From contig CACXNA010000016.1 of the NCBI GenBank assembly GCA_902768985.1, positions 62,001-126,000 on the forward strand: a DNA stretch of 64,000 nt, written 5' to 3'. A model generated the notes under the pieces. The model saw only the letters and a program-made list of their open reading frames with translations, was not told the origin of the DNA and did not search any database. The stretch comes from an uncultured Bacteroidia bacterium (GTDB taxonomy: Bacteria > Bacteroidota > Bacteroidia > Bacteroidales > UBA932). Position 1 is the first letter of the stretch, and every line of letters starts with the position of its first letter. Made by a program: the position numbers and the translations under genes. Of this stretch, positions 6,601-64,000 are shown piece after piece.

Positions 6601-6674
6601 TGGCAGGGGAAGCAGGAATCGAACCCACATTGACGGTTTTGGAGACCGCTGAATTACCATTATTCTATTCCCCT
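6601..6674 (-). tRNA. tRNA-Trp (CCA)
   Basis: The minus strand folds as a cloverleaf: acceptor AGGGGAA pairs with TTCCCCT, anticodon loop CTCCAAA gives CCA, and the T-loop is TTCGATT. A genomic CCA end is present at 6603-6601. It lies between tuf and secE, a frequent location for tRNA-Trp in bacteria. Confidence 0.96.
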
Positions 6675-6680
6675 GTATAA

Positions 6681-6708
6681 GGCGGAGCGGGCAAGTGCTC
6701 CCTCCGCC
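6681..6708 (-). terminator. Hairpin downstream of tuf
   Basis: GGCGGAG at 6681-6687 pairs with CTCCGCC at 6702-6708, starting 16 bp after the tuf stop. On the minus strand only a weak TT-A-T follows. It may be a partial terminator or a processing hairpin that separates tuf mRNA from tRNA-Trp. Confidence 0.5.
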
Positions 6709-6724
6709 TTTGTGCTAATCGAAA

Positions 6725-7912
6725 TTAGTCGAGGATCTTGATGACCTGACCGGCACCGACCGTACGGCCACCCTCACGGATAGCGAAACGGAGGTTCTCG
6801 TTCAGAGCAACCGGAGTGATGAGCTGGACGTCGATCTCCACGTTGTCACCAGGCATAACCATCTCGACACCGGCCGGCAGAGTAATCTCACCGGTAACAT
6901 CCAGGGTGCGGATGAAGAACTGAGGACGATACTTGTTGTGGAACGGCGTGTGACGGCCACCCTCTTCCTTCTTCAGAACGTAGATCTGACCGAGGAAGTG
7001 CTTGTGCGGAGTGATGGAACCCGGCTTGGCGATAACCTCACCACGCTTGACTTCCTTCTTGTCGATACCACGGAGGAGGAGACCCACATTGTCACCAGCC
7101 TCACCCTGATCGAGGAGCTTGCGGAACATCTCGACGCCAGTGACGACGGTGCTCTTCGGCTTGTCGTTGAAACCAACGATCTCAGCAGGGTCATTGACGT
7201 GGATGGTACCAGTCTCGATACGGCCGGTAACCACAGTACCACGACCGGTGATGGAGAAGATGTCCTCGATAGGCATCAGGAACGGCTTCTCGTTCTCACG
7301 GACCGGAAGGGGAATGTACTCGTCAACAGCGTCCATGAGCTCCATGACCTTTTCCTCCCACTGCGGCTCACCGTTGAGGGCGCCGAGGGCGGAACCACGG
7401 ATGACGGGAGCGTTGTCACCGTCGAAGTCGTACTTGCTGAGGAGGTCGCGGACCTCCATCTCGACGAGGTCAAGCATTTCCTCATCGTCCACGAGGTCGA
7501 CCTTGTTCAGGAAGACGACCATCTTCGGGACGTTCACCTGCTTGGCGAGGAGGACGTGCTCGTTGGTCTGAGGCATCGGACCGTCGGTGGCGGCGACCAC
7601 GAGGATTGCACCGTCCATCTGGGCAGCACCAGTAACCATGTTCTTCACGTAGTCGGCGTGGCCCGGGCAATCGACATGCGCATAGTGACGATTGGCGGTC
7701 TGATACTCGACGTGAGCGGTGTTGATGGTGATACCACGCTCCTTCTCCTCAGGGGCGTTATCAATCTGATCGAAAGACTTGACTTCGCTCAGACCCTTGG
7801 CAGCGAGCACCTTGGTGATAGCTGCGGTCAGAGTGGTCTTGCCATGGTCAACGTGGCCGATCGTGCCAATGTTGACATGCGGTTTATCCCGCTTGAAAAC
7901 TTCTTTTGCCAT
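6725..7912 (-). CDS. tuf: Elongation factor Tu
   Basis: GTPase that delivers aminoacyl-tRNA to the ribosomal A site. 395 residues, full length. G1 is GHVDHGKTT (residues 19-27), G3 [13 protein letters not shown]4 NKVD, G5 in the RGSALGAL region; domains II (VVTGRIETG) and III ([15 protein letters not shown]) are complete. It lies directly after four tRNA genes, the same order as E. coli thrU-tyrU-glyT-thrT-tufB, and is probably co-transcribed with them from the promoter at 8382-8412. Codon use is strongly biased, as expected for a highly expressed gene. Confidence 0.99.
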
Positions 7913-7969
7913 AATATTACGTTTAAAAGTTTGTTTACAAATTAAAACCGGCTTTTAGACCGGCTTTTG

Positions 7970-8041
<72 letters not shown>

Positions 8042-8050
8042 AATATTTTT

Positions 8051-8125
8051 TGGAGCGGGGTAGGAGAATCGAACTCCCATTTCCAGCTTGGAAGGCTGGC
8101 ATAATAGCCATTATACGAACCCCGC
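8051..8125 (-). tRNA. tRNA-Gly (TCC)
   Basis: Minus-strand cloverleaf: acceptor GCGGGGT/ACCCCGC, anticodon stem CCAGC/GCTGG with loop CTTCCAA giving TCC, T-loop TTCGATT. CCA is encoded at 8053-8051. Confidence 0.95.
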
Positions 8126-8162
8126 ATGTTGGAGTAGTCGTCTTGTCCTACTTCCGCTTTTG

Positions 8163-8245
8163 TGGGCAAGGATGGATTCGAACCACCGAAGGTGAAAACC
8201 AGCAGATTTACAGTCTGCCCCATTTGGCCACTCTGGTACTTGCCC
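8163..8245 (-). tRNA. tRNA-Tyr (GTA)
   Basis: Minus-strand class II tRNA of 83 nt with a long variable arm. Acceptor GGGCAAG/CTTGCCC, anticodon loop CTGTAAA giving GTA, T-loop TTCGAAT. Discriminator A, no genomic CCA. Confidence 0.95.
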
Positions 8246-8270
8246 AATTTATCTTACATTGCTGATCGTG

Positions 8271-8344
8271 AGCCGATGGAGGGAATCGAACCCACGACCT
8301 TGAGATTACAAATCACACGCTCTAGCCAACTGAGCTACATCGGC
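8271..8344 (-). tRNA. tRNA-Thr (TGT)
   Basis: Minus-strand cloverleaf: acceptor GCCGATG/CATCGGC, D-arm GCTC/GAGC, anticodon loop TTTGTAA giving TGT. There is a T-T mismatch in the anticodon stem (TGTGA/TCTCA, pair 29-41) and another in the T-stem (GTGGG/CCCTC, pair 50-64). It is the first gene of the tRNA-tuf cluster. Confidence 0.9.
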
Positions 8345-8381
8345 AATGTATTATTTCAAAGCCCCTAGGTTTTTGGGACTG

Positions 8382-8412
8382 CAAAGATAGGAACAATTTC
8401 CTATTTTCCAAA
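8382..8412 (-). promoter_or_regulatory. Bacteroidota-type promoter of the tRNA-tuf operon
   Basis: On the minus strand TTTG (8412-8409), exactly 19 nt, then TATCTTTG (8389-8382). This matches the Bacteroidota primary sigma consensus TTTG-N19/20-TAnnTTTG. It lies just upstream of tRNA-Thr(TGT) and overlaps the last codons of dxs. Confidence 0.9.
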
Positions 8413-10266
8413 CACTTTTTCCAAACTTTTTTTGATGCCGGCGGCGTCGATTCCGCAAGCCGCTTGCTGCTGGGACTGCGAAGCCTGTGCCACGAAGGCG
8501 TCGGGGATGCCGAGCCCGTCCAGGGTGACGGGGCAGCGGTGGGCGGCGACCCATTCGCTGACGGCGCTGTAGAGCCCGCCGGCGAGGCAGCCGTCCTCGA
8601 CCGTGATGAGGTGGCGGTAGCGGCCCGTGACCGCGGTGAGCAGCGCCTCGTCGAGCGGTTTGAGGAAGCGCATGTCATACACGCCAACGCGTCCGGGCCA
8701 GCCGGCGGCGGCTTCCAGGGCGCGGCTCGCGACCGGGCCAAGCGTGAGGATGGCGACCTCGTCGCCTTCCAGCAGGGCCTCGCCGCGGCCGACTTCGAGC
8801 GCTTCGCCCGCCGCCTGCCGCCAGGGCGCACCTTCGCCCATCCCGCGCGGGTACCTTATAATAAAGGGTCCCGTCTCGTGCTTCCAGGCGGTGTACATGA
8901 GCCGCTTGAGCTGCACCTCGTCGCGCGGCGCGCTGACGGTGATGTCGGGAATGCTGCGGTAGGCGGCCAGGTCGAAGGCGCCGTTGTGCGTGGCGCCGTC
9001 TTCGCCGACCAGGCCGGCGCGGTCGAAGCAGAGCACCACCGGCAGGCGCTGCAGCGCCACGTCGTGGATGATCTGGTCGTAGGCGCGCTGCGAGAAGGCG
9101 GAGTAGATGTTGCAGAACGGTTTCATCCCGCCGGCGGCGAGGCCGGCGGAGAAGGTGACCGCGTGCTCCTCCTCGATGCCCACGTCGAAGAAGCGGTCCG
9201 GGTGGCGCGCCGCGAGGAGGTTCATCCCGCAGCCGGTGGCCATGGCGGGCGTGACGCCGACGATGCGGCGGTCCGCCTCGGCGAGCTCGCAGAGCACTTC
9301 GCCGAAGACGTCCTGGTAGCGGTCGCGCGCATGCGGCGTATGGACCCGTTCGCCGGTGGCGGGGTCGAAGTGGCCGGGCGCGTGCCAGGTCACGGGATCC
9401 GCCTCGGCGGCGGGGTAGCCCTTGCCCTTGACGGTGAGGCAGTGCAGCAGGCGCGGGCCGCCCAGGTCCTTGAGCTTGCGCAGCGTGCGGACCACCTCGG
9501 CGATGTCGTTGCCGTCGATCGGACCGAAATAGCGGAAGCCGAGCGACTCGAACAGGGCGCCGCCGGGCTTGCCGACGAACCAGGACTTGAGGGCGCGCAC
9601 CCAGCGCGAGATGAAGCGCCGGAAGGCGTGGTCGCCCAGCAGATCCCAGATGCGGTTCTTAAAGCGGTTGTAGGAACCGCTGGTGGTGATGTTCAGCAGG
9701 TAGCGGTGCAGCGCGCCCGTGTTGCCCTCGATGGACTGGTTGTTGTCGTTGAGGATGACGAGCAGGTCGGCGCGGCTCTCGCCGGCGTTGTTGAGGCCCT
9801 CGAAGGCGAGGCCGCCCGTCATGGCGCCGTCGCCGATCAGGGCGATGACCTTCTCGTGGCGCTCCTGCATGCGCGTGGCCTCGGCGAGGCCCAGCGCGGC
9901 GGAGATGGAAGTCGAGGAGTGGCCGACGCCAAAGGCGTCAAACGGGCTCTCGTCCCGGTTGGGGAAGCCGCTGATCCCGCCCTTCGTGCGCATGGTGGCG
10001 AAGGCCTCCCGGCGGCCGGTCAGGACTTTGTGGGCGTAGGCCTGGTGGCCTACGTCGAAGACGAACTTGTCGGCAGGGGTGTCGAAGACATAGTGCACGC
10101 CCACAATGATCTCCACGGCCCCCAGGCTGGAAGCCAGGTGGCCGGGATTGTGGGAGCAGACTTCGATGATGTACTGACGCAGCTCGGCGCAGAGCGTGCG
10201 CAGCTGCTCAGTACTGAAGTCCTTGATGTCGGCAGGACTGCTGATTCTGTCGAGGAGTTCGTACAC
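8401..10266 (-). CDS. dxs: 1-deoxy-D-xylulose-5-phosphate synthase
   Basis: Thiamine-diphosphate enzyme that condenses pyruvate and glyceraldehyde-3-phosphate, the first step of the MEP isoprenoid pathway. 621 residues, full length. Visible motifs: N-terminal GHLASSLGAVE, the ThDP-binding ALIGDGAMTGGLAFEGLNNAG block split around residue 150, GNDIAEVV, and the transketolase-like DRAGLVGEDGATHNG near residue 430, then the C-terminal transketolase domain (VEDGCLAGG). It starts 12 bp after an MFS transporter gene and is probably co-transcribed with it. Its 3' end overlaps the tRNA-tuf promoter. Confidence 0.98.
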   Translation of the reverse strand: MYELLDRISSPADIKDFSTEQLRTLCAELRQYIIEVCSHNPGHLASSLGAVEIIVGVHYVFDTPADKFVFDVGHQAYAHKVLTGRREAFATMRTKGGISGFPNRDESPFDAFGVGHSSTSISAALGLAEATRMQERHEKVIALIGDGAMTGGLAFEGLNNAGESRADLLVILNDNNQSIEGNTGALHRYLLNITTSGSYNRFKNRIWDLLGDHAFRRFISRWVRALKSWFVGKPGGALFESLGFRYFGPIDGNDIAEVVRTLRKLKDLGGPRLLHCLTVKGKGYPAAEADPVTWHAPGHFDPATGERVHTPHARDRYQDVFGEVLCELAEADRRIVGVTPAMATGCGMNLLAARHPDRFFDVGIEEEHAVTFSAGLAAGGMKPFCNIYSAFSQRAYDQIIHDVALQRLPVVLCFDRAGLVGEDGATHNGAFDLAAYRSIPDITVSAPRDEVQLKRLMYTAWKHETGPFIIRYPRGMGEGAPWRQAAGEALEVGRGEALLEGDEVAILTLGPVASRALEAAAGWPGRVGVYDMRFLKPLDEALLTAVTGRYRHLITVEDGCLAGGLYSAVSEWVAAHRCPVTLDGLGIPDAFVAQASQSQQQAACGIDAAGIKKSLEKVFGK

Positions 10267-62284: not shown

Positions 62285-62315
62285 TTTGGATTTTCGAGAA
62301 ATATGTCTAAATTTG
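62285..62315 (+). promoter_or_regulatory. Promoter of rpsO-pnp
   Basis: TTTG (62285-62288), 19 nt, TAAATTTG (62308-62315): a near-perfect Bacteroidota promoter. A hairpin TTCCCG-CCA-CGGGAA (62324-62338) follows at the mRNA 5' end. Confidence 0.88.
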
Positions 62316-62375: not shown

Positions 62376-62574
62376 ATGGCTGAATATTTGATGCCTGAGA
62401 AGAAGCAAGAGATTTTCGCGAAGTACGGGAAGTCCAATAAGGACACAGGACGTGGTCACCCGTCGTTCCCTTCTCCGCCTCGTCGGTAAGCGCCGTCAGA
62501 TCCTGGACTACCTCCAGGCCATGGACATTGAGAGATACCGTAAGATCGTCAAGGAGCTCGGTCTCCGTCGATAA
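62376..62574 (+). pseudogene. rpsO: 30S ribosomal protein S15, internally deleted and frameshifted
   Basis: S15 binds 16S rRNA early in 30S assembly. The ATG at 62376 reads [25 protein letters not shown], matching the S15 N-terminus, but then leaves the frame and stops after 37 codons. From 62450 another frame ([41 protein letters not shown]) encodes the C-terminal part to the stop at 62574. About 25 codons around the second helix (SPEAQIALFTFRI-like) are missing, a deletion of length 3n+2. S15 is normally 89 residues. Promoter, terminator and neighbour pnp are normal, so an assembly or sequencing error must be considered. Confidence 0.85.
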
Positions 62575-62592
62575 ACGAAATAGGAAAAGGTA

Positions 62593-62625
62593 GGGATGGT
62601 TCCCGCACGGGACCATCCCTTTTTT
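62593..62625 (+). terminator. Intrinsic terminator between rpsO and pnp
   Basis: GGGATGGTTCCC (62593-62604), loop GCAC, GGGACCATCCC (62609-62619) with one bulge, then six T (62620-62625). Probably partial termination of rpsO mRNA ahead of pnp. Confidence 0.9.
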
Positions 62626-62662: not shown

Positions 62663-64000
62663 ATGAACGTTATCAACAAAAAGATCGAACTCGCGGACGG
62701 CCGCGTGATCGAGATCGAGACCGGCAAACTGGCCAAGCAGGCCGCCGGCTCCGCCGTTGTCAAGATGGGAGGTACGATGGTCCTCGCCACCGTGACCTGT
62801 GCCGACGAAGTCAAGGAAGGCACCGATTTCATGCCTCTCACCGTGGACTACCGTGAGAAGTATTACTCCGCCGGACGTTTCCCCGGCGGTTTCCTGAAGC
62901 GCGAGAGCAAGCCCTCCGATTACGAGGTGCTCATCGCCCGCCTGGTGGACCGCCCCATCCGCCCGCTGTGGCCGGATGATTTCCACCTGGAAGTTTTCGT
63001 GAATATCAGCCTGATTTCCGCCGAGAAGGACATCCAGCCGGATGCCCTCGCCGGCCTGGCCGCTTCCTGCGCCCTCGCCACCTCCGACCTGCCTTTCGGC
63101 GGCCCGGTGTCCGAGGTCCGCGTGAGCCGCATCAATGGTGAATTCGTCATCAACCCGACCTTCTCCCAGATGAAGGACTCCGACCTCGAACTGATGGTCG
63201 CCGCCACCGAGGAGAATATCATGATGGTCGAAGGTGAGATGAACGAGGTGACCGAGCACGACATGCTCGAGGCCATCAAGTTCGCCCACGAAGAGATCAA
63301 GAAGCATTGCCGCGTGCAGAAGGAGCTCATGCACGAGCTCGGCACCGACGTCAACAAGCGCGACTATCCCCACGATCCAGAGGATGAGGAGCTCAAGAAG
63401 GCCGTGCACGACTTCTGCTACGACAAGTGCTACGCCCTCGCCAAGGCTGCCAAGCCCAAGAAGGAGCGTGAGGAAGGCTTCAAGGCCATCAAGGAGGAGT
63501 TCCTCGCCACGATTCCGGAGGAGGAGCTCGAGGAGAAGACCCCGCTCGTGGAGCGTTACTACCACGCCGAGGAGAAGGAAGCCATGCGCAACATGATCCT
63601 CGACGAGGGCATCCGCCTGGACGGCCGCGTCTGCGACCAGGTCCGTCCGATCTGGTGCGAGGTGGACTACCTCCCCTGCGCCCACGGCTCCGCCATCTTC
63701 ACCCGCGGTGAGACCCAGTCCCTCGCGACCGTCACCCTCGGCACCAAGATGGATATGAAGGAGATGGACGAGGTGCTGATCCAGGAGGACCAGCAGTTCG
63801 TGCTCCACTATAACTTCCCGCCGTTCGCCACCGGCGAGGCCAAGCCGCAGCGCGGCCCCGGCCGTCGCGAGATCGGCCACGGCAACCTTGCGATGCGCGC
63901 CCTCAAGCCGGTCGTGCCCCTCGCTCCCGAGAACCCGTACGCCGTGCGCGTCGTTTCCGATATCCTCGAGTCCAACGGTTCTTCTTCCATGGCCTCCGTC
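62663..64000 (+). CDS. pnp: Polyribonucleotide nucleotidyltransferase (partial, C-terminus beyond window)
   Basis: 3'-5' phosphorolytic exoribonuclease. The first 446 residues are present from the ATG at 62663. First RNase PH domain ([52 protein letters not shown]), the helical linker, and the start of the second RNase PH domain ([40 protein letters not shown], with [11 protein letters not shown] at the edge). The KH and S1 domains lie beyond 64000. The rpsO-pnp order is conserved in bacteria. Confidence 0.98.

Follow-up and report, generated by a model that had tools for sequence, protein, structure and literature searches.

A frameshifted rpsO gene in a Bacteroidales genome as a probable assembly misjoin, and a conserved RNA hairpin within the coding region of rpsO

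Metagenome assemblies have been described to contain local errors and contig ends that are not unique, and the exact overlap of nonunique scaffold ends is reported to equal the largest k-mer or one less in both IDBA-UD and metaSPAdes (PMC7111523). Interspecies repeats have been named as a cause of fragmented metagenome genomes (PMC9386100). The gene for ribosomal protein S15, rpsO, is associated with autoregulatory mRNA structures (PMC4137082, PMC4684408, PMC10931766), which in the elements described occupy the leader or the region around the start codon. Stacked G-C and G-U pairs are given as one of two rRNA features mimicked by S15 regulators in a work that also presents leader candidates for ribosomal protein genes of Bacteroidia and Flavobacteria, and whose table rates an S15 leader for Flavobacteria as '?' and has L13 and S4 entries, without S15, for Bacteroidia (PMC7247131).

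Here we report the analysis of a frameshifted rpsO gene in a 64,000-nt stretch of DNA (the window, meaning the whole stretch analysed) on contig 16 of a 2.35-Mb genome of 28 contigs that is 95.18% complete (G000). The case resembles the errors of PMC7111523 in local joins that are probably unsupported and in exact overlaps of about the largest k-mer, and differs from those described there in that a single gene is struck again and again across a genus; compared with the interspecies repeats described in PMC9386100, misjoins within the gene occur besides breaks. The rpsO coding region of this genus also contains an RNA hairpin, an observation separate from the lesion. Like the known S15 elements it is an RNA structure linked to rpsO, and its stacked pairs may resemble the stacked G-U/G-C pair of one S15 recognition site, whereas it spans codons 17-38 and its binding by S15 is putative. 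With the leader candidates of PMC7247131 it shares the phylum and the status of a candidate regulator of a ribosomal protein gene, but it lies outside the leader.

The rpsO lesion and its surroundings

The rpsO gene (62376-62574, plus strand) measures 199 nt including the stop codon, versus 276 nt in intact relatives. Its 5' part (62376-62446, ORF nt 1-71) is in frame from the ATG, its 3' part (62447-62574, ORF nt 149-276, stop included) continues in another frame, and the 77 nt between them (ORF nt 72-148), or 25 codons plus 2 nt, are absent at the join 62446|62447, which causes the frameshift. The reading frame at 62376-62489 opens as the S15 start, and that at 62452-62574 (both plus strand) reads the S15 remainder. 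An earlier note on this DNA had recognised the two ends of S15 in different frames and a loss of about 25 internal codons, and both statements are borne out; the loss, which it had placed at 62448-62452, is present in the letters, but the computed join (best fit to the relative locus L060, 192 of 199 letters, microhomology 0) lies slightly to the left. The position of the join is fixed by the nearest relatives, which read ACACC where G000 reads ACACA. Among the sequences compared, Thr24 is encoded by ACC in these closest relatives and by ACA in 6 of 78 genus genes; had G000 originally possessed ACA, the join might shift within a shared AGG (3 nt).

The same note had pointed to a GGAC repeat around the missing part, and GGAC does occur on both sides of the join, at 62441-62444 and 62448-62451. 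Recombination between direct repeats leaves one repeat copy. Since both copies are present here, the lesion is no scar of a deletion between these repeats, and a role of the repeat in the deletion is unsupported; the computed microhomology is 0.

The promoter, terminator and pnp had been considered intact. This view is supported by a terminator-like hairpin followed by a T run (62592-62620, plus strand) and by pnp, which starts at 62663 and runs as an open ORF of 796 codons (6664-9054 of locus L041, plus strand of the window) past the end of the window at 64000, while the promoter was judged by eye only: the octamer TAAATTTG at 62308-62315 (plus strand) is a possible Bacteroidota -7 box. Elsewhere in the window, a cluster of five tRNA genes lies at 6604-8344 on the minus strand.

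The proposal that another copy compensates for the lesion was followed up by a search of the genome for a second rpsO, which gave a single PF00312 match and no other copy in the 95.18% complete assembly. The missing middle of rpsO was not found elsewhere in G000, where it gave just short matches with E values of 0.1 or worse. A scan of genome contigs with the 18-mer across the junction had nine matches among those listed, with titles from Proteobacteria and Actinobacteria, which we read as chance.

One rival reading of the lesion is a real 77-nt deletion fixed in the species, with S15 lost and ribosomes assembling without it. The lack of any other S15 in G000 is in keeping with such a loss, and S15 can be dispensable, since E. 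coli strains with rpsO deleted are viable, if cold-sensitive (PMC10931766); the statement of the earlier note that a living cell needs S15 was therefore too strong. Against a real deletion, the remaining rpsO codons are undamaged: both retained parts read as S15, with no further disabling change of the kind that a decaying pseudogene would carry.

Recurrence of rpsO lesions across the genus

In a set of 101 genomes of the genus, seen in full, an S15 match was present in 92; rpsO has internal lesions in five (G000, G003, G033, G064 and G092) and runs off a contig end in nine. A larger draw of 400 genus genomes, for which the count rests on the matches listed and 42 genomes picked for weak, partial or absent S15 matches were re-examined, yielded at least 19 internal misjoins in rpsO and at least 27 contig ends inside it, the end being deduced from a clipped locus in five of the 27 (G108, G179, G250, G268 and G355); small in-frame losses may escape the genus counts. 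Internal lesions were absent from all 96 matches in other genera of the family and all 144 matches in other families of the order. No S15 match at all was obtained in 14 of 110 non-genus family genomes and in 2 of 146 other-family genomes, the latter search requiring 95% completeness and the genus search having no such requirement. In the set of 101 genomes, as judged by hit coordinates only, neither S12 (79 genomes with a match) nor L20 (81 genomes) showed an internal split match, and the comparison of rpsO (5/92) with these two genes together (0/160) gives p=0.006. Partial matches were seen in 4 of the 81 genomes for L20 and in 14 of the 79 for rpsL (S12), seven of the latter visibly at a contig start; rpsL is maybe another assembly break point.

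The form of the joins was determined by script as the best fit of 17 lesions to 78 reference genus genes. Deletions, 9 to 77 nt long, account for fifteen of them and duplications, of 14 nt and 35 nt, for the other two; their breakpoints have no common position, and the frame is kept in 6 of 17, which equals the chance expectation. Microhomology is 0 in eight joins, 1 in eight and 3 in one, with a mean of 0.65 versus 0.67 for random joins. The joins are thus blunt and independent of the frame, as misjoining predicts, and they look like blind concatenation, rather than the outcome of repair or selection. The reference set includes L016, itself misjoined (in G064), and the breakpoint of G003, for which it served as reference, is therefore unreliable; without G003 there are 16 lesions, six of them in frame, with a mean microhomology of 0.69. 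L016 was left out of the 44-mer comparison and the tree covariation test described below, and kept in the counts of AAC and AAT codons, of the 17 hairpin pairs and of stacked G-U pairs.

These data bear on a real deletion as well, since at least 18 more genomes have lesions of this kind, which arise irrespective of the frame and are duplications in some cases, and 240 of 240 matches outside the genus are without them; we regard such a deletion as improbable. A slightly smaller probability still is given to a strain mixture, another option of the earlier note, in which deleted and intact cells coexist and only the deleted form entered the consensus, as it would leave unexplained both the duplications and the contig ends and exact overlaps found in the same stretch of other species. 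Lesions and contig ends recur in the genus and 0 of 240 matches outside it are affected, which favours misassembly: judged from sequence comparison, the G000 organism very probably has an intact rpsO, and the lesion, real in the letters, is most probably false in the organism. Of the three options left by the earlier note, misassembly or consensus error is hence strongly favoured by the relatives, while a compensating copy was not found.

Several rpsO loci of the genus show other peculiarities. One full-length S15 match (G383, contig 162, region 2418-2703) was reported with one internal TAA. Two rpsO matches each were found in G030, G123 and G146. In a second rpsO copy on contig 2 of G051 (L095), the 5' part is, by eye, of one clade type and the 3' part of another.

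A shared stretch of rpsO as a place of breaks and misjoins

At sites with the same residue, codon identity among 20 genomes reaches 0.79 in rpsO codons 11-50, compared with 0.55-0.62 for L20 and 0.60-0.65 for S12 in 40-codon windows of the same number of genomes, and 0.44-0.65 for such windows of the 5' part of pnp (9 of the 20 genomes). The commonest 44-mer, at nt 28-71 of rpsO, is carried by 14 of 16 lesion genomes (G003, G064 and G150 being left out), 12 of the 23 genomes with a contig end in the gene and 10 of the 77 with an intact copy (Fisher test, 1.2e-8 and 2.3e-4); since this 44-mer also marks a clade, its association with lesions is confounded by descent. In five split rpsO genes the two contig ends overlap exactly, by 99 nt in G042 and G315, 113 nt in G008, 70 nt in G082 and 45 nt in G353. 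The stretch is thus common to other genomes, and contigs end in it. In one further genome (G382), rpsO contains 115 consecutive N (1718-1832 of L112), probably a scaffold gap.

Recurrent breaks in one gene at first suggested that a mobile element inserts into the rpsO of this genus and that the lesions and contig ends are its traces. This explanation was rejected, and is given hardly any probability, since in all five split pairs that were compared the contigs stop within rpsO and share an exact overlap there; the joins moreover lack a common breakpoint, and no contig with an insert in rpsO was found among those looked at.

We conclude instead that this stretch of rpsO is an inter-species repeat at which assemblers break or misjoin, one gene being hit repeatedly across the genus because its DNA is common to several species. 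The middle of rpsO is near-identical in DNA across species of this species-rich genus, and the assembler of a mixed sample would be unable to thread the shared stretch reliably; contigs would then end within rpsO, or its two sides would be joined without the right overlap, a piece being dropped or doubled at random. We infer a metagenomic origin for G000 and such misjoining as the source of its lesion. Sharing of DNA is not the whole explanation. Identical runs of 55 or more occur in 13 of 190 pairs for S12 versus 17 of 190 for rpsO, yet S12, shared about as often, is without internal split matches, so that a factor beyond shared DNA is needed, perhaps the length of the repeat against the insert size. 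A chimera test with 16 genomes placed G080 (88 and 95%) nearest on the left of the G000 join; to the right of it, the G080 sequence covers the last 123 nt only (98%), G308 is equally close there (98% over 246 nt), and G364 is best over most of that side (95%). A cross-species chimera in G000 is thus unsupported by this test, which is weak, especially for the right side.

What looks like the loss of a core gene can therefore be a repeatable assembly fault, given that S15 seems broken in at least 19 of 400 genomes and cut in at least 27. As breakage of rpsO mimics its loss, statements on gene loss in this genus need reads.

An intragenic RNA hairpin in rpsO

The hairpin is long and irregular, comprises 17 pairs and spans ORF nt 49-112 (codons 17-38), without overlap with the ribosome-binding site or start codon. 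In G000, its 5' arm (ORF nt 49-67) lies at 62424-62442 on the plus strand, and the partner (nt 95-112) falls within the missing stretch. All 17 pairs are formed in 65 of 78 genus sequences and in 16 of 23 from the other genera of the family; of 28 sequences outside the family, 19 form no more than 13. In the 23 sequences from other genera of the family, third positions, too, are near-invariant at codons 17, 19-21 and 34-38. The rpsO block thus appears to be conserved because third positions of codons 17-38 sit in a covarying hairpin, a link that the data show in part.

In an alignment of 48 sequences, 95.7% of the cells pair, versus 38 to 53% when the structure is slid along and 93.1% in shuffles, and the cells changed on both sides number 25 versus 7.9 in shuffles. 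The covariation is clearest for nt 63 and nt 99, at the wobble positions of codons 21 and 33, which change jointly on five branches, out of five and six changes, and always from T-A to C-G or the reverse. Of 3744 third-position pairs, this one has the first rank on the tree (p=1.5e-9), a result that is stable on a tree from the 3' part only and on six bootstrap trees. Within the genus, 3 of 3 AAC codons occur together with a Leu codon that has G as its third base, whose place is taken by A for 74 of 74 AAT codons. Pair 66-96 is weaker (p 0.014, 147th of 3744 on the tree) and fails in 10 of 47 alignment rows. Counted by pairs, those changed on both sides (2 versus 1.4; 207 of 500 shuffles) and further pair types (12 versus 13.1 in shuffles) show no excess. 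The folding stability of codons 1-53 is likewise without excess over within-sequence synonymous shuffles in 13 sequences (mean z -0.24); under another null, nt 46-117 gave a mean z of -1.58 for 23 sequences and a consensus-structure z of -3.06.

A conserved RNA structure is thus tied to rpsO, as in S15 regulators, and at least one G-U occurs among two stacked pairs of the apical stem in 94 of 101 sequences, the pair order relative to rRNA aside. Our best guess is that the hairpin serves as an S15 feedback site inside the coding region; a site of RNA processing or pausing is a possible alternative role. Stated as a tentative proposal, to which we give a little less than even confidence, S15 would bind the codon 17-38 hairpin in this Bacteroidales family and some relatives and throttle its own translation, the operator lying in the body of the message rather than in the leader. 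As part of this operator reading, the hairpin would freeze synonymous sites enough to trip metagenome assemblers across the genus. One leader search took just 25 nt of coding sequence (PMC4137082), and such a limit would miss the hairpin. No S15 element of Bacteroidales came to notice in a limited literature search, and a search of Rfam with the intact gene L060 gave no relevant match, the sole one up to E=5 being sX4 (E=3.7), far below the gathering score. If S15 binds the hairpin, the S15-linked RNA regulators gain an intragenic form, which is directly testable. The hairpin locus can be located in relatives, for example on the minus strand of L060 at 1852-1935 (nt 37-120).
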